From the NCBI GenBank assembly GCA_002699025.1, contig PABA01000169.1, forward strand, positions 1 through 47,621: DNA of 47,621 nucleotides, given 5' to 3'. Under the pieces are notes generated by a model. It saw only the letters and a program-made list of their open reading frames with translations, was not told the DNA's origin and searched no databases. This document shows, in pieces, positions 5,315 through 15,874 of the stretch; the stretch's first letter is position 1; the number at the start of each line of letters is the position of its first letter. The stretch comes from Sandaracinus sp. (GTDB lineage: Bacteria > Myxococcota_A > Polyangia > Polyangiales > Houyiibacteriaceae). The position numbers and the translations under genes are program-made.

Positions 5315-6754
5315 ATGTCCCGAGACGGTGACGAACCCGAGCGCGCCCCCGCCTCCCGAACGCCCGAGGACGAGGCGCCGGGCCCGGGCACGCGTCCGCG
5401 CAGCAGACAGGTCGCCCGGGGCGCCGCGGGCGGGAACGACGACTTCCTCTATCACCTCTACCGGGGCAGCTCGATGCTGCTCCAGGACCAGGTGGTCGAG
5501 GCGAAGGAGGAGCTCGAGCGGGCCCTCGCGCTCCAGCCCCAGGACGCCAAGAGCCAGGACCTGCTCGCCGGGGTCTACTTCCGCCTCGGGGTCTATCCGC
5601 GGGCCATCGAGATCTGGCGACGGCTGGTCGACGCCTACCCGAAGGAGCCGACGCTCCGCGTGAACCTGGCGCTGGCGCTCTTCAAGACGGGGCAGGCCGA
5701 CGACGCGCTCGAGCACGTCCACGAGGCGCTCCGGATCCAGCCCGATCACGAGCGCGCCTGGGGCTACCTGGGGCTGATCCACTGGCGGCTCGGGCAGCTC
5801 GAGGCGGCCCGCGACGCCTTCCTCCGCGGCGGGCAGGCCTCCATGGCGCGGCGCATGGAGGAGGCGCTCGGGCGGGACGCGCCGATGCCGGACCCGGGGC
5901 CCTCGGGGGAGGAGCTCGAGGCGTCCGACCGGGCGGCCATGCGCTCGGCGGCCGAGGAGGCGCTCGAGCGGCTGGACTCGGAGTCCCCGCGGCTGGCCCT
6001 CGAGGGTCAGGCGGGCCGCGCCGAGGGGCGGCCGAGCGGCGTCTGGAGCCCGATCGAGCCGGGGACGGAGGTGGTGCCGCCGCGCCCGGCGGAGACGCGC
6101 CCACGGCTCCTGGGGGAGCCTCCCACGCTGGCGGACCGGGTGCGGCGCTGGACCGTCGCGCTCTCGCCCGACACCCCGCTGGCGGTGACGGCGAGCGGCG
6201 CGCTCCTGGTGCAGGCCGAGCACGACGTCTTCCTGCGGCTCTCGAACGTCTCGGCCGTGCGCGGCGAGCTCCGCACGACCGTCGTCCGCCGGCGCACCCG
6301 CGGGCGGGAGCTCGACGCGCTGCTCGGTGGCAAGGAGCCGGTCATGCATTGGCGCGGGCCGATCACCGCGCTCGTCCGCCCGCCGCGCGGCCGGCTCTTC
6401 GCGGCCCTGCGCCTCGGCGAGGACGCCCTCTACGTGCGCGAGGAGCTCCTCTTCGGGTTCGACGATCGGGTCGGCTTCGAGACGGCGAACCTGCCGCTCG
6501 CCGGGGATCCGGTCGTAGTCACGCAGCTCCACGGGGATGGCATCGCCGTGCTGACGGTGCCGGCGGAGCCCGTGGCCATGCGCGTGCAGGAGGGGGAGGA
6601 GCTGCGGGTCGATCCGGCGCAGCTGATCGGCTGGTCCGGCCGCCTCTTCCCCAACGCGCAGCGCGGGACGGCGCCCTACTCGGCGCACGCGCCGCCGCTC
6701 GGCTTTCGCGGCGATGGCGTGGTCCTGCTCGGCGAAGCGGCGGATCTGCGCTAA
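5315..6754 (+). CDS. TPR repeat protein with C-terminal AIM24 domain
   Basis: 479 residues from the ATG at 5315; an upstream ATG in frame would overlap the candidate promoter. After a charged disordered N-terminus, residues about 40-185 form at least four tetratricopeptide-type helix pairs (spacing of 34, with A..L...L...P signatures such as ALALQPQDA and ALRIQPDHE). A Glu/Arg-rich linker follows, then from about residue 278 a beta-rich region with the AIM24/TIGR00266 pattern (GALLVQAEHDVFLRLSNV, later MRVQEGEELRVDPAQLIGW). AIM24-like domains are beta-helical and of poorly known function; the mitochondrial protein supports inner-membrane organisation. The gene lies 10 bases before pgsA and so is probably co-transcribed with phosphatidylglycerol-phosphate synthesis. 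No signal peptide is visible, so it should be cytoplasmic or membrane-associated. The fusion is notable. Confidence 0.85.
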   Translation: MSRDGDEPERAPASRTPEDEAPGPGTRPRSRQVARGAAGGNDDFLYHLYRGSSMLLQDQVVEAKEELERALALQPQDAKSQDLLAGVYFRLGVYPRAIEIWRRLVDAYPKEPTLRVNLALALFKTGQADDALEHVHEALRIQPDHERAWGYLGLIHWRLGQLEAARDAFLRGGQASMARRMEEALGRDAPMPDPGPSGEELEASDRAAMRSAAEEALERLDSESPRLALEGQAGRAEGRPSGVWSPIEPGTEVVPPRPAETRPRLLGEPPTLADRVRRWTVALSPDTPLAVTASGALLVQAEHDVFLRLSNVSAVRGELRTTVVRRRTRGRELDALLGGKEPVMHWRGPITALVRPPRGRLFAALRLGEDALYVREELLFGFDDRVGFETANLPLAGDPVVVTQLHGDGIAVLTVPAEPVAMRVQEGEELRVDPAQLIGWSGRLFPNAQRGTAPYSAHAPPLGFRGDGVVLLGEAADLR

Positions 6755-6764
6755 GGCTCACGCG

Positions 6765-7466
6765 ATGGCGGCGGAGGAGCAGACGGACGGGGCGACGCCC
6801 CCGAAGCCGAAGGGCATCCGGCAGGACGCGATCAACCTGCCGAACCTGCTGACGTTCCTGCGCATCATCATGATCCCGCTGGTGCTCTACCTGCTGGCGG
6901 ACGGGACCCCGCGCGCGAATTTCTGGGCGGCCATCGTCTACATCCTGACGGCGGTCACGGACTTCCTCGACGGTTGGCTCGCGCGGCGGATGGGGCTGAT
7001 CAGCGTGCTCGGGAAGTTCCTGGACCCGCTGGCGGACAAGCTGCTCGTGATGGCGACGCTCGTCTTCATGGCCTACCTGGGGCGGCTGCCGCTGCTCGGG
7101 GTCGCGGCGGTGATCCTGATGGTCGGCCGGGAGCTGAGCATCACGGCGCTCCGGACCATCGCCATGAGCGAGGGGGTCGTGATGGCGGCCGGGCAGGGCG
7201 GCAAGGACAAGACGGCGCTCCAGATGACCGCCATCCTGCTGCTCATCGTCTACCACCCCTACGAGGTCGACTTCTTCTTCTTCCGGGTGGACGTCGACCT
7301 GGCGCAGGTGGGGCTGATCATCCTCTACATGAGCGTCTTCTTCGCGATCACCAGCGCCGGGGAGTACATCAAGCTCTTCGTCGACGCGGTCGAGGCGAAG
7401 GAGAGGCGCCTGGCGGAAGAACAGCACGCCGGAGAGCGGCAGGTCGAAGCGCGGCAGGGCGGGTAG
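6765..7466 (+). CDS. pgsA: CDP-diacylglycerol-glycerol-3-phosphate 3-phosphatidyltransferase
   Basis: 233 residues from the ATG at 6765. The enzyme joins CDP-diacylglycerol and glycerol-3-phosphate to make phosphatidylglycerol phosphate, the committed step to phosphatidylglycerol and cardiolipin. The CDP-alcohol phosphotransferase signature D-x2-D-G-x2-A-R-x8-G-x3-D-x3-D is complete (starting DFLDGWLARR and ending DPLADK, about residues 66-92). The N-terminus has NLPNLLTFLRI, typical of PgsA, and four to six hydrophobic segments follow. The tail is charged and Gln/Glu-rich, a little longer than in the E. coli enzyme. It is the second gene of an operon with the TPR-AIM24 protein, 10 bases away. 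CDP-alcohol enzymes are similar, so phosphatidylserine synthase is the alternative, but the N-terminal motif favours PgsA. Confidence 0.92.
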   Translation: MAAEEQTDGATPPKPKGIRQDAINLPNLLTFLRIIMIPLVLYLLADGTPRANFWAAIVYILTAVTDFLDGWLARRMGLISVLGKFLDPLADKLLVMATLVFMAYLGRLPLLGVAAVILMVGRELSITALRTIAMSEGVVMAAGQGGKDKTALQMTAILLLIVYHPYEVDFFFFRVDVDLAQVGLIILYMSVFFAITSAGEYIKLFVDAVEAKERRLAEEQHAGERQVEARQGG

Positions 7467-7577: not shown

Positions 7578-7928
7578 TCAGGCGAAGGTGCCGCCGTTCC
7601 AGCCCCAGAGGTGGCGCGGGGCGTCGCTCATCTCGATGTAGACGCGATCCTTGGCGAGGCCGAGCTCCTCTTCGAGGGCCGCGCAGACCCGCTCGCTGAG
7701 CTGCTCGCTCTGGGTCGGGTCGAAGCCGCCGAGGCTCTTCGCCTCCACGTAGGCCGTGGGCGCGTCGCTGCCGCCGAAGGTCATGGGCGCCGCCGGCGCG
7801 AGGCGCGTCATGACCCACTTCTCCGGCTTGCCGGTGACCTCGGCGAGGACGGTGGAGAGGCGCTTCAGCAGGCGCTTCGTCACCTCGGACTCGGGCGTGG
7901 CGGTCGTGTGCACGTGGATGAGCGGCAT
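7578..7928 (-). CDS. MIF-family tautomerase
   Basis: 116 residues from the ATG at 7928. It begins Met-Pro-Leu-Ile-His, so removal of Met exposes the catalytic N-terminal proline of the tautomerase superfamily. The length, the central PMTFGGSDAPTAYVEAKSLG stretch and the C-terminal GWNGGTFA ending match macrophage migration inhibitory factor (MIF) and phenylpyruvate tautomerase, rather than the 60-residue 4-oxalocrotonate tautomerases. Such proteins form trimers and convert enol and keto forms of phenylpyruvate in vitro; the natural bacterial role is unclear. The upstream frame is open but lies antisense to the next gene, so the start at the catalytic proline is firm. It stands alone, divergent from the PPC-domain gene with about 80 bases between. 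Confidence 0.88.
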   Translation of the reverse strand: MPLIHVHTTATPESEVTKRLLKRLSTVLAEVTGKPEKWVMTRLAPAAPMTFGGSDAPTAYVEAKSLGGFDPTQSEQLSERVCAALEEELGLAKDRVYIEMSDAPRHLWGWNGGTFA

Positions 7929-8009
7929 GCGCCCATGCTGCCACGGGCCGGGGAGGGCGTCGCCGGGGAAGGCCGGGCGGCGAGGCGCGCCGGGTGCTAA
8001 CACCGCGGC

Positions 8010-8939
8010 GTGATCGTCATGGACGGAGAGGCGCGGCGCTGGGCGCTGCGGCTGGGCGCGGGGGCGAAGCTCCCGGACGCGCTCGAGGAGCTCGCGGCGG
8101 AGCGGGGCGTCGGGCAGGCGTACCTCGAGGGGGCAGCGAGCTTGAGCCGGGTCGAGCTGGTCGACGGAACGCGCTACGCGGCGGCCGAGGCGAGCCGGAT
8201 CGTGGGCGCCATCGAGGGGGGCGAGATCGTGCTGCACGTCACGCTCGCGGTGGACGGCGAGCTGGTCGCCGCGCGCCTCGACAGCGCCCGGGTCGAGAGC
8301 GCCGTGCTCTCGCTGGCCGTCTACGGGGTGGAGGCGAAGGTGGGGGCCTCGCGCGGGTCGACGCGGAAGGCGAAGGCGCCGGCTTCATCTCCGGTGGCGG
8401 CGAGCGACGCGGCCGAGGCCCCTGCCGCGAAGGGCAGCCCGGGCTGGGGCGACGTCGCGGCGGCGTCGGCGGCCGCGGAGGAGGGCGCCGAGAGCGGCGG
8501 CGCGAGCTGGGCGGACGTGGCGGTGGCGTCGGCGGAGGCGAAGAAGAGGGAGATCGTGGAGGACGCCGAGCTGACCTGGGCGCAGGTGGCGAAGGCGTCC
8601 TCGGCGGCCGAGGCCGCGGCGCCGAAGCCCGCGAAGAAGCGGCGGCGGCGCAAGCCCGAGCCGAAGGTGCCGGTCCTCCCGAAGCAGCCGCTCCCGACCT
8701 CGCGGGATCGCGCGCCGAAGGTGGAGCCGGACGTCTTCCCCGAGAAGGGCGACTACGTGAGCCACAAGCAGTTCGGCCTGTGCAAGGTCGAGGTGGTGCA
8801 CGACGACGGTGGCCTGCTGATCAAGCTGCCGAACAGCCGGCGAAAGCGGATCAAGCTCGACCCGTTCGTCGTCGAGGGCCCGACGACCGACGGCAAGGGG
8901 CGGACGGTCTTCCATCTGAAGAAGCGCCCGAAGCGTTAG
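8010..8939 (+). CDS. PPC (DUF296) domain protein with W-repeats and CarD-like C-terminus
   Basis: 309 residues from a GTG at 8010 (an ATG three codons later is the alternative). Residues about 8-115 fit the PPC/DUF296 domain of AT-hook proteins and bacterial homologues: an LRLGAGAKL start, YLEGAASLSRVEL, IVGAIEGGEIVLHVTL and a closing AVLSLAVYG. The usual metal-site His residues are partly lost (VLHVTL keeps one). A linker holds three related segments, WGDVAAAS, WADVAVAS and WAQVAKAS, spaced roughly 30-37 residues apart and each followed by Ala/Glu-rich helix. A Lys/Arg-rich block (KKRRRRK) follows, then GDYVSHKQFGLCKVEVV with a basic end, which looks like the CarD/RID or KOW-type fold of CarD and TRCF. 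Together this suggests a nucleic-acid or RNA polymerase associated protein. The PPC call is good; the tail call is inference. Confidence 0.75.
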   Translation: MIVMDGEARRWALRLGAGAKLPDALEELAAERGVGQAYLEGAASLSRVELVDGTRYAAAEASRIVGAIEGGEIVLHVTLAVDGELVAARLDSARVESAVLSLAVYGVEAKVGASRGSTRKAKAPASSPVAASDAAEAPAAKGSPGWGDVAAASAAAEEGAESGGASWADVAVASAEAKKREIVEDAELTWAQVAKASSAAEAAAPKPAKKRRRRKPEPKVPVLPKQPLPTSRDRAPKVEPDVFPEKGDYVSHKQFGLCKVEVVHDDGGLLIKLPNSRRKRIKLDPFVVEGPTTDGKGRTVFHLKKRPKR

Positions 8940-9000: not shown

Positions 9001-10272
9001 TCAGCCGCTCTTCTCGAGGCGGACGCGCGGGTCGAGGGCGGCGACGGCGATGTCGGCGAGCAGGTTGCCCGTCTGCACGGTGACGGCGAAGACCACCACC
9101 ACGCCCATCACGGTCGGCGCGTCGAGGTTCACGATGGCGCGGATGGCGAGCGCCCCCATGCCGGGCCAGCCGAAGATGGTCTCCGTGATGATCGCGCCCG
9201 CGACCAGGAGCGTCATCGAGAGGCCGAGCATGGTCACGATGGGCAGGAGCGCGTTCCGCACGGCGTGCCCCACGACCCGGTGGCGTGGCAGGCCCTTGGC
9301 GGCCGCCGTGCGCACGAAGTCGCTCCGCAGCGTGTCGACGAGCTCGCTCCGCATGATGCGCGCGTAGGTGGCCGCGCCGATGATGGCGAGCGTGAAGGCC
9401 GGCAGGAGCGCGTGGTAGACGTGATCCCAGAAGCCCACGCCGTAGCCGCCGAGCGGGAACCAGCCGTAGAGGAAGGCGAAGGCGAAGAGGAAGAGCGGGC
9501 CCGTGACGAAGGTCGGCAGGCTGATGCCGAGGTAGGCGCTGCTCATCAGCCCGGTGTCGACCCAGGTGTTGCGGCGCACGGCGGCGAGGATGCCGACGCT
9601 CAGCCCGAAGAGGAGCTCGAAGAGGAGCGCGATGGCGCCGAGGAGCAGCGTCCGCGGCAGCCGGTGGCCGATCACGTCGGCGACGGGCTCGTTGTGGCCG
9701 AAGGACTCGCCGAGGTCGCCCTGGAGCAGGCCGCAGCGGTCGCCCCGGTCGAAGCGCCGCACGACGACGGCGCCGCCCCCGAGGTGCGCCGCGACCGGCT
9801 CGGCGACCTCGCTCGCCAGGTCGTCCACGTTGCCGCTCGCGCGGAAGGTCTGCGCCGCGCCGCCGGCGTCGGTCGCGACGAGGGCCAGCTCCCACGCCTC
9901 GCCGGCCTTGGTGAGCTCGGCCGTGATCTCGCCGTGGGAGGAGGGGAGGGCGCTCTCCTCGCTCGTCCGATGGGGCCGCGCGACGTCCAGCCCGGCCCGC
10001 TCGAGCTGGGCCGAGAGGTCGTCTTCCACGATGGCCGGGCGCCGACCCCGGACGCAGCCGCCGACGCCGAGGTAGCCGAGGAGCTGCTGCCCGAGCGGCC
10101 GGTCGAGGCCGTACTTGCGCTGGAAGTCGGCCAGCTGCTCCGGGCCGGCGTTCGGCCCGAGGGTGGCGGCGGCCGGGTCGCCGATGGCGTGCACGAGCGT
10201 GAAGACGAGCAGCACGACCAGGAAGACGATGGTGATGGCGCCGAGCACCCGGCGGACGATGAAGGCGAGCAT
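9001..10272 (-). CDS. Oligopeptide/dipeptide-type ABC permease (DppB/OppB family) with extra domain
   Basis: 423 residues from the ATG at 10272, which overlaps the stop of the binding-protein gene (ATGA). The start MLAFIVRRVLGAITIVF and first membrane segment, the GLDRPLGQQLLGYL stretch, and the EAA-type loop (RTAAAKGLPRHRVVGHAVRNALLPIV) are those of DppB/OppB permeases. Ordinary members are about 310-340 residues. Here about 108 extra residues (about 72-181) sit in the periplasmic loop after the first helix, before the conserved GDLGESF segment. The insert starts and ends near a Cys (73 and 180) and reads like a small alpha/beta domain (EAWELALVATDAGG, then DDLASEVAEPVAAHL). The remaining part has the usual five more helices. 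It is the last gene of a three-gene operon without ATPases. Confidence 0.9.
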   Translation of the reverse strand: MLAFIVRRVLGAITIVFLVVLLVFTLVHAIGDPAAATLGPNAGPEQLADFQRKYGLDRPLGQQLLGYLGVGGCVRGRRPAIVEDDLSAQLERAGLDVARPHRTSEESALPSSHGEITAELTKAGEAWELALVATDAGGAAQTFRASGNVDDLASEVAEPVAAHLGGGAVVVRRFDRGDRCGLLQGDLGESFGHNEPVADVIGHRLPRTLLLGAIALLFELLFGLSVGILAAVRRNTWVDTGLMSSAYLGISLPTFVTGPLFLFAFAFLYGWFPLGGYGVGFWDHVYHALLPAFTLAIIGAATYARIMRSELVDTLRSDFVRTAAAKGLPRHRVVGHAVRNALLPIVTMLGLSMTLLVAGAIITETIFGWPGMGALAIRAIVNLDAPTVMGVVVVFAVTVQTGNLLADIAVAALDPRVRLEKSG

Positions 10273-15217: not shown

Positions 15218-15874
15218 ATGCAGAAGCTCACCGACCGTCAGCGCGCCGTCCTCGAGTACATCTCCGACTCGATCGACTCCCGCGGCTACCCGCCCACGCT
15301 CCGCGAGATCGGCAACCACCTCGGCATCAAGAGCACCAACGGGGTCAACGATCACCTGCGGGCGCTCGAGCGGAAGGGCTACCTCACCCGCGAGGACATG
15401 AAGTCGCGCACGCTCCGGCTCCTCCGGCACCCGGACGGCCGCCCCATCGACGAGGGCCCGAGCTTCGACGACGCGGACATGATCGAGATCCCCATCGTCG
15501 GTCGCGTCGCCGCCGGCGCGCTCACCGAGGCCATCGAGGAGCCGGAGGATCGGGTGCGCATCGACCGCATGCTGGTGGGCAAGGGCGGCGACGTCTTCGG
15601 CCTGCGCATCTCCGGCGAGTCGATGATCGAGGCCGGGATCCACGACGGCGACTACGTCTTCGTGCGCAAGCAGCTCACGGCGCGGCGCGGCGACATCGTG
15701 ATCGCGCTGGTCGGCGACGAGGCCACCTGCAAGCGCTACTTCCCCGAGAAGGACCACATCCGGCTGCAGCCGGAGAACAGCACGATGGCGCCGATCCTCG
15801 TGCCGAAGAACGACTGGCGCGAGACGCAGATCCTCGGCGTCGTCGTCGGGGTGTACCGGAAGCTCGCGAGCTGA
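15218..15874 (+). CDS. lexA: LexA repressor, SOS regulator
   Basis: 218 residues from the ATG at 15218. LexA represses DNA-damage genes and cleaves itself when RecA filaments form. The N-terminal winged helix (KLTDRQRAVLEYISDSI, PPTLREIGNHLGI, STNGVNDHLRALERKGYL) is canonical. The cleavage site is Ala99-Gly100 (VAAG), the catalytic Ser135 is in SGESMIEAGI, and the catalytic Lys172 in EATCKRYF, where Cys171 replaces the more usual Val. The length is normal to slightly long because of a linker. A good SOS box lies upstream. RecA, DinB or other SOS genes are not in the window, though recD2 is. Confidence 0.96.
   Translation: MQKLTDRQRAVLEYISDSIDSRGYPPTLREIGNHLGIKSTNGVNDHLRALERKGYLTREDMKSRTLRLLRHPDGRPIDEGPSFDDADMIEIPIVGRVAAGALTEAIEEPEDRVRIDRMLVGKGGDVFGLRISGESMIEAGIHDGDYVFVRKQLTARRGDIVIALVGDEATCKRYFPEKDHIRLQPENSTMAPILVPKNDWRETQILGVVVGVYRKLAS

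Follow-up and report, generated by a model that had tools for sequence, protein, structure and literature searches.

A stretch of DNA of 47,621 nucleotides from Sandaracinus sp. (contig PABA01000169.1; hereafter 'the window') encodes a protein of 309 residues in which a PPC/PCC domain is followed by a low-confidence linker with three W-x-x-V-A-x-A-S motifs and a basic block and then by an SH3/Tudor-like barrel at the C-terminus (Table 1). This 'PPC-Tudor protein' is not a one-off but a member of a conserved family. Both of its domains are known; what appears to be new is their combination, the wide occurrence of that combination in the phylum, and the W motif. A role in coupling to transcription or repair, as a factor not yet described, is possible.

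A conserved family of PPC-Tudor proteins

Taken alone, the protein gave nothing above threshold in Pfam, NCBIfam or the PDB; the Pfam scan of the single sequence placed PCC at E 0.025 and CarD_TRCF_RID, in the C-terminal GDYVSHKQFGLCKV domain, at E 0.14, both under the cut-off, and found no helicase family, that is, no helicase body. A scan of genome contigs with this protein alone also retrieved no relatives. With profiles, the gene is the sole PCC match in its genome at E ≤ 1 (E 0.03), and its C-terminal domain occurs there once (next best E 0.16).

Across genomes, 26 full-length proteins, the window's included, share one arrangement of parts and, when aligned, five invariant residues (W167, H252, F255, G256 and C258). 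Within the phylum, profile A2, made from the C-terminal domain, has matches in 105 of 282 genomes at E ≤ 0.001, and a broader profile (A10, 44 sequences) has them in 144, although many of the source genomes of the profiles are among these 282; by our count of rows, 120 of the A10 matches are strong (E 4e-10 or better) and 24 are much weaker, and a single strong-match genome (G156) has two strong places.

The reading frame itself could have been a chance product or compositional artefact of high-GC DNA, because the linker is rich in alanine and a longer frame of 457 residues overlaps it; we reject this explanation, to which we give a negligible probability, on the conservation of orthologues (matches in 54 of 96 genomes, own and related, at E ≤ 0.01) and on NG86 dN/dS values of 0.219, 0.152 and 0.231 in three of five pairs (0.558 and 0.58 in the two diverged pairs), and the folded ends are predicted with confidence. 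The frame described in the initial annotation is thus a real gene, with all of the named parts in place; an alternative ATG lies at 8019, shortly after the GTG start. That annotation also knew of no described protein with this order of PPC domain, W repeats and CarD/TRCF-like C-terminus, and we found no paper on a bacterial PPC-Tudor protein among those listed by searches of the open literature, a coverage that leaves most subscription journals and bioRxiv outside.

Table 1. Positions of the PPC-Tudor gene, its parts and the genes around it in the window.
Feature	Position	Strand	Remarks
PPC-linker-Tudor gene	8010..8939	+	309 aa, GTG start; orthologues and dN/dS
PPC/PCC domain, residues 9-107	8034..8330	+	profile, Pfam, Foldseek
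Ala/Pro-rich linker, residues 111-245	8340..8744	+	pLDDT mostly <50 to residue 164, then about 60-80
W motif 1, WGDVAAAS, residues 146-153	8445..8468	+	
W motif 2, WADVAVAS, residues 167-174	8508..8531	+	
W motif 3, WAQVAKAS, residues 190-197	8577..8600	+	
Basic block KKRRRRK, residues 209-215	8634..8654	+	
C-terminal Tudor-like barrel, six strands, residues 246-305	8745..8924	+	
H252 to F255	8763..8774	+	counterparts in PcrA: H681 (of H252) and W684 (of F255)
K279 to I281	8844..8852	+	counterparts in PcrA: K712 (of K279) and L714 (of I281)
PgsA-like phosphatidyltransferase	6714..7466	+	recurrent upstream neighbor in relatives of the same taxonomic order; name is our own reading; start codon uncertain
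DppB-like ABC transporter permease	9001..10257	-	recurrent downstream neighbor in relatives of the same taxonomic order; name is our own reading
LexA-like gene	15218-15874		about 6 kb downstream of the PPC-Tudor gene

The two folded ends

The N-terminal PPC domain proposed in the initial annotation is secure once homologues are used: the family profile (A1) identifies 2h6l (E 4.8e-24) and 2dt4 (E 6.3e-17) in the PDB, and Foldseek finds the same two structures with the model (2dt4, E 2.2e-7; 2h6l, E 4.2e-7). Pfam PCC is present in 21 of the 26 order-level members at E ≤ 0.1 and in 38 of 45 further members at E ≤ 0.01; a head profile built from the 26 detects the domain in 68 of 71 family proteins, among them 42 of the 45 on which it was not trained, and in none of 71 shuffled sequences; it detects no head in L069, L071 and L091.

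The same annotation had the PPC domain link the protein to DNA or the nucleoid, and this part is retained only as a weak proposal: depositors labeled several solved PPC structures 'putative DNA-binding protein'; however, DNA binding by plant AHL proteins is assigned to their AT-hook (excerpt of PMC4209074). Neither core of that motif, RGR or GRP, occurs in the window protein, so DNA binding through an AT-hook was rejected. By eye, AT-hook-like cores occur in the linkers of two relatives (GRP in L003, RGR in L004).

Could the head instead be the working part, binding a small molecule or a metal, with a generic SH3-like tail that binds nucleic acid or another protein and has nothing to do with RNA polymerase? 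The structure 2h6l is described as metal-containing, and some relatives have HLH...GGH in place of its HIH...GGH histidines, which we take to be metal-binding; the UvrD Tudor domain also has affinity for nucleic acid (excerpt of PMC7585439), and the lysine position of the tail (279, see below) is not kept throughout the phylum. However, the window protein retains one of the three histidines, and a short orthologue (L088) that adjoins the same DppB-like permease gene has the W motif and the Tudor-like domain and no PPC domain, so motif and Tudor can persist without the head. We regard this alternative as distinctly improbable.

The C-terminal domain, predicted alone, is a six-stranded barrel with a mean pLDDT of 87. 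VIA-align places 5dma (PcrA; Z 6.0, rmsd 2.2, 49 residues aligned), 9dqs (UvrD1; Z 5.8), 9dci (UvrD1; Z 5.6) and 7egs (Z 5.6), that is, a lobe of E. coli RNA polymerase with the UvrD C-terminal domain, at the top of its list, the four together spanning Z 5.6-6.0, rmsd 1.8-2.5 and 47-51 residues; lower rows include the human PHF20 Tudor domain (Z 5.5), CarD (4kbm; Z 4.9) and Mfd (6ac8; Z 4.7). Because these scores are tied (maximum 6.0, PHF20 5.5), the fold alone does not decide the branch. Foldseek returned nothing at E ≤ 0.001 for this model (best UvrD row 6yi2, E 0.24); in both lists the absence of a fold is no proof of its absence.

Profile comparisons separate the branches further. By hhalign, A2 matches a profile of four UvrD Tudor sequences (A3) at 91.9% (E 6.9e-7) vs 1.2% for the two CarD-like proteins of the genome (a profile of these 2 sequences only, with no Mfd); against the PDB, however, the UvrD Tudor domain 9dqs scores only a borderline E 0.03. 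We also fetched 12 of the weak A10 places that lie below the family; in our own reading, made without a family scan, eight are tails of UvrD-like helicases and four belong to other proteins. The C-terminal domain is thus probably nearer to the Tudor domain of PcrA/UvrD than to CarD/TRCF.

A CarD- or Mfd-like mode, in which the domain would bind the beta1 region of RNA polymerase as CarD or the Mfd RID does, draws on other scores, e.g., CarD_TRCF_RID is found in 22 of 29 members at E ≤ 1 (best 5.1e-4) and PcrA_UvrD_tudor in three (best 0.16), and the CarD and Mfd structures are in the VIA-align list; the isolated window domain scores 15.9 bits with CarD_TRCF_RID vs a cut-off of 23. The tail of the genome's own UvrD-like protein is also below the PcrA_UvrD_tudor cut-off (E 0.69), so in this lineage a miss by that model says little. 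With the low hhalign value for the CarD-like proteins and with matched residues that are those of PcrA (see below), we consider this mode distinctly improbable. The initial annotation had called the C-terminus CarD/TRCF-like; a Tudor/SH3 barrel of the RNA-polymerase-binding kind stands, while the branch moves, that is, CarD/TRCF is the right kind of fold and probably not its closest branch.

A separate protein with a macro-domain-like N-terminus (our own reading) and a C-terminal Tudor-like GDFFLHPKFGVGKV domain is encoded elsewhere in the same genome (L033 1480-2907, contig G000:C138) and in two relatives (L086 1670-2755; L087 1283-2179).

In PcrA, each of the substitutions H681A, W684A, K712A and L714A severely reduces the pulldown of RNA polymerase (excerpt of PMC5397179). 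In an alignment of the window domain, E. coli UvrD, the UvrD-like protein of the genome and 5dma (PcrA numbering is our own count), these residues pair with H252, F255, K279 and I281. Among the 26 order-level A1 rows, the first two columns are H and F in all 26, position 279 is K in 22 and R in four, and position 281 is I in 24 and V or L in the others; in the wider A10 set of 44, the columns hold H in 44, F or W in 31, K or R in 25 and I, L or V in 44. As judged from these alignments, the binding residues of PcrA are matched completely within the taxonomic order but only in part across the phylum; because positions 255 and 279 vary in A10, the predicted surface for RNA polymerase may not be kept phylum-wide.

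The site on the polymerase is a beta-hairpin of RpoB that is bound by the PcrA Tudor domain and recurs in UvrB, with the pattern [VIL]DxxTGE[VIL][VILT] (excerpt of PMC8318588). The genome's RpoB has IDEETGEIL, which fits the pattern, but the genome's UvrD would in any case lead one to expect the hairpin. The same genome also encodes a UvrD-like protein (L101), a probable Mfd (L103) and two CarD-like proteins (L104 and L105; the names UvrD and Mfd are our own reading), so the PPC-Tudor protein would be an addition to them.

The linker and its W motifs

The three W repeats and the basic block noted at the outset are present in the linker (Table 1). In 20,000 shuffles of residues 113-245, three exact copies of W-x-x-V-A-x-A-S never occurred and one exact copy occurred 31 times, while 2,257 of the shuffles contained one or more copies of the looser W..[AV][AVI]..[AS]; none of the other five frames has the exact motif, and a profile of the motif run against the whole genome at E ≤ 10 finds the three copies of this gene and no others. 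The basic block has similar counterparts in some relatives with long linkers (L006-L009 and L011), is unclear in the closest (L003 and L004) and is absent from those with short linkers.

Conservation of the motif was counted in the 90 residues before the Tudor-like domain, leaving out L084-L087 (two helicases and two macro-like proteins) and redundant proteins, identical in the C-terminal domain. In its strict form, W-x-x-[AV]-[AVI]-x-x-[AS], it is present in 30 of 36 members from the window's taxonomic order (shuffle mean 1.1, maximum 6); a relaxed form is present in 32 of them (mean 2.4, maximum 9); outside the order and family f28 it is present in 11 of 25 (strict; mean 0.5) or 18 (relaxed; mean 1.0), and in f28 in none of 11 (strict) or one (relaxed). 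Because the proteins share ancestry, these counts should not be read as separate events. The distance from a copy to the Tudor-like domain ranges from about 14 to 120 residues (e.g., that of L005 is missed within 90 residues and found within 130), and the window protein has three strict ones. At the position of the invariant W167 all 26 aligned members have W, in L030 within a degenerate copy. Since the strict motif is missing from f28 and from several other members, it is not essential to the family. Most of the 11 f28 loci (within L047-L062) have an acidic, ELNILEM-like stretch just before the Tudor-like domain instead, which is perhaps a replacement motif.

The initial annotation had made its reading depend on CarD/KOW-type similarity at the C-terminus and on repeats in orthologues: a likeness to Tudor/SH3 folds was seen in the former, and the repeats are present in the latter.

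In the model, motifs 2 and 3 are helical (pLDDT about 62-80), and motif 1 holds a short helix (<50). Residues i, i+3, i+4 and i+7 would share one face of such a helix, and the pattern fits the behavior of a short linear motif.

The possibility that the motif is common to the genome's UvrD-like protein was rejected, as the motif was not seen there. UvrD/PcrA-like helicases of the genus g42 (L084 2107-4299, L085 1986-4199 and L125 222-2519) have a P-A-W-Q-[AT]-A-V segment ahead of their Tudor domain; its W-x-x-A-V resembles the W motif, a weak lead and possibly a chance one.

Gene neighborhood, proposed role and known systems

By our count, 20 of the 26 aligned loci have a PgsA-like or a DppB-like gene within their short flanks, and in wider stretches both are present at three of the remaining six (L009 = L117, L030 = L112 and L025 = L155). 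Among 20 wide loci, two have both genes (L155 and L156) and 18 have neither, so only some members of the taxonomic order have this arrangement; the two neighbors point nowhere in particular as to function. Two features of the window's neighborhood are side observations. The DppB-like permease has an apparent long insert following its first transmembrane segment, its alignments covering about 418 residues in the window and in L008 vs about 230-290 in most others; and between the PgsA-like and PPC-Tudor genes the window has a tautomerase/MIF-like gene (7578-7932, minus strand; our own reading), which tblastn at E ≤ 1e-8 found in none of the compared loci of other genomes.

In two of the 20 wide loci (L146 and L148, the same as L076 and L079), which are from distant genomes, the family gene has a LexA-like gene as its immediate, convergent neighbor (L146 6213-6818 and L148 3193-3795); this is a possible link to the DNA damage response. 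It bears on the alternative that the Tudor-like domain targets UvrB or another protein with a TGE hairpin, with a role in DNA repair rather than at RNA polymerase. The hairpin that UvrB shares with RpoB and the Thermus UvrD Tudor domain with UvrB (7egt; row 16 of the VIA-align list, Z 5.1) also speak for this alternative, and the window has a LexA-like gene at a distance (Table 1). However, no LexA-like gene turned up in the other 18 wide loci, and the recurrent neighbors in relatives of the same taxonomic order are the PgsA-like and DppB-like genes; we judge the alternative unlikely.

Our preferred reading, which we think somewhat probable, is that the protein is a multivalent adaptor for the transcription and repair machinery, with a PPC trimer and UvrD-like Tudor domains on the hairpin of RpoB or UvrB, perhaps rivaling UvrD. 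The variability of position 279 outside the order and the LexA-like gene that adjoins in two genomes weaken this reading, and with it the bolder version given below, and strengthen the repair, CarD and PPC-head alternatives. From known PPC proteins, we infer that the PPC domain would form a homotrimer; each chain would then extend a long flexible arm with W-x-x-[AV]-[AVI]-x-x-[AS] helices (three here) and carry a PcrA/UvrD-like Tudor domain at its C-terminus. The Tudor domain would dock on the exposed beta-hairpin with the TGE tip, either that of the beta subunit of RNA polymerase or its counterpart in UvrB. There the protein would compete with, or replace, the UvrD/PcrA helicase and so limit or direct UvrD; the W helices would recruit a second partner or reinforce the binding.

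A bolder version can be offered tentatively, as a possibility: an undescribed family of transcription factors, widespread in Myxococcota, would use a trivalent PPC hub to present UvrD-type Tudor domains to the UvrD/PcrA hairpin and thereby gate the access of the helicase to stalled polymerase or R-loops, while the W motifs would act as a linear motif not described before and draw in a partner specific to the lineage. If the adaptor reading is right, a conserved factor that is not a helicase would share the docking site of UvrD/PcrA on RNA polymerase, so that backtracking, transcription-coupled repair and the removal of R-loops would be under a further level of control in myxobacteria, and bacterial PPC domains would gain a concrete context; the W motif, as a short linear motif, could be used directly to fish for the partner.

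Among known systems, the PcrA/UvrD Tudor domains (5dma, 6yi2, 7egs and 9dqs) are similar in being small Tudor-like barrels at the extreme C-terminus, preceded by a linker, and the histidine, aromatic, lysine and aliphatic residues that bind RNA polymerase are matched, as is the start of the domain, G-D-x-V-x-H-x-x-F-G. Unlike PcrA/UvrD, the PPC-Tudor protein has no helicase, is fused to a PPC head and has an extra C-terminal stretch with a further strand; also, a cysteine after H-x-x-F-G is conserved in the family, and the domain is below the reach of the Pfam model.

The CarD_CdnL_TRCF group (CarD, CdnL and the Mfd RID) has the same Tudor/SH3 fold of the RNA-polymerase-binding kind, and the CarD of Myxococcus xanthus has an AT-hook tail. 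In this CarD, one part binds RNA polymerase and another binds DNA (excerpt of PMC4374960). The PPC-Tudor protein differs from this group in that its domain is C-terminal and below the Pfam cut-off, with a weak profile match, and in that it has no AT-hook core.

On the side of the head, the protein shares the PPC fold, with a significant profile match, with single-domain prokaryotic PPC/DUF296 proteins (2h6l, 2dt4 and 3htn). Prokaryotic PPC proteins are described as single-domain, stand-alone trimers (excerpt of PMC4209074); in contrast, the PPC domain here is fused to a linker and a Tudor-like domain, and in this branch the histidines are mostly lost. As in the plant AHL proteins, which join an AT-hook to a PPC domain (excerpt of PMC4209074), the PPC domain is coupled to another functional unit; unlike them, the PPC-Tudor protein has no AT-hook core, places the PPC domain first and has the Tudor-like domain instead.
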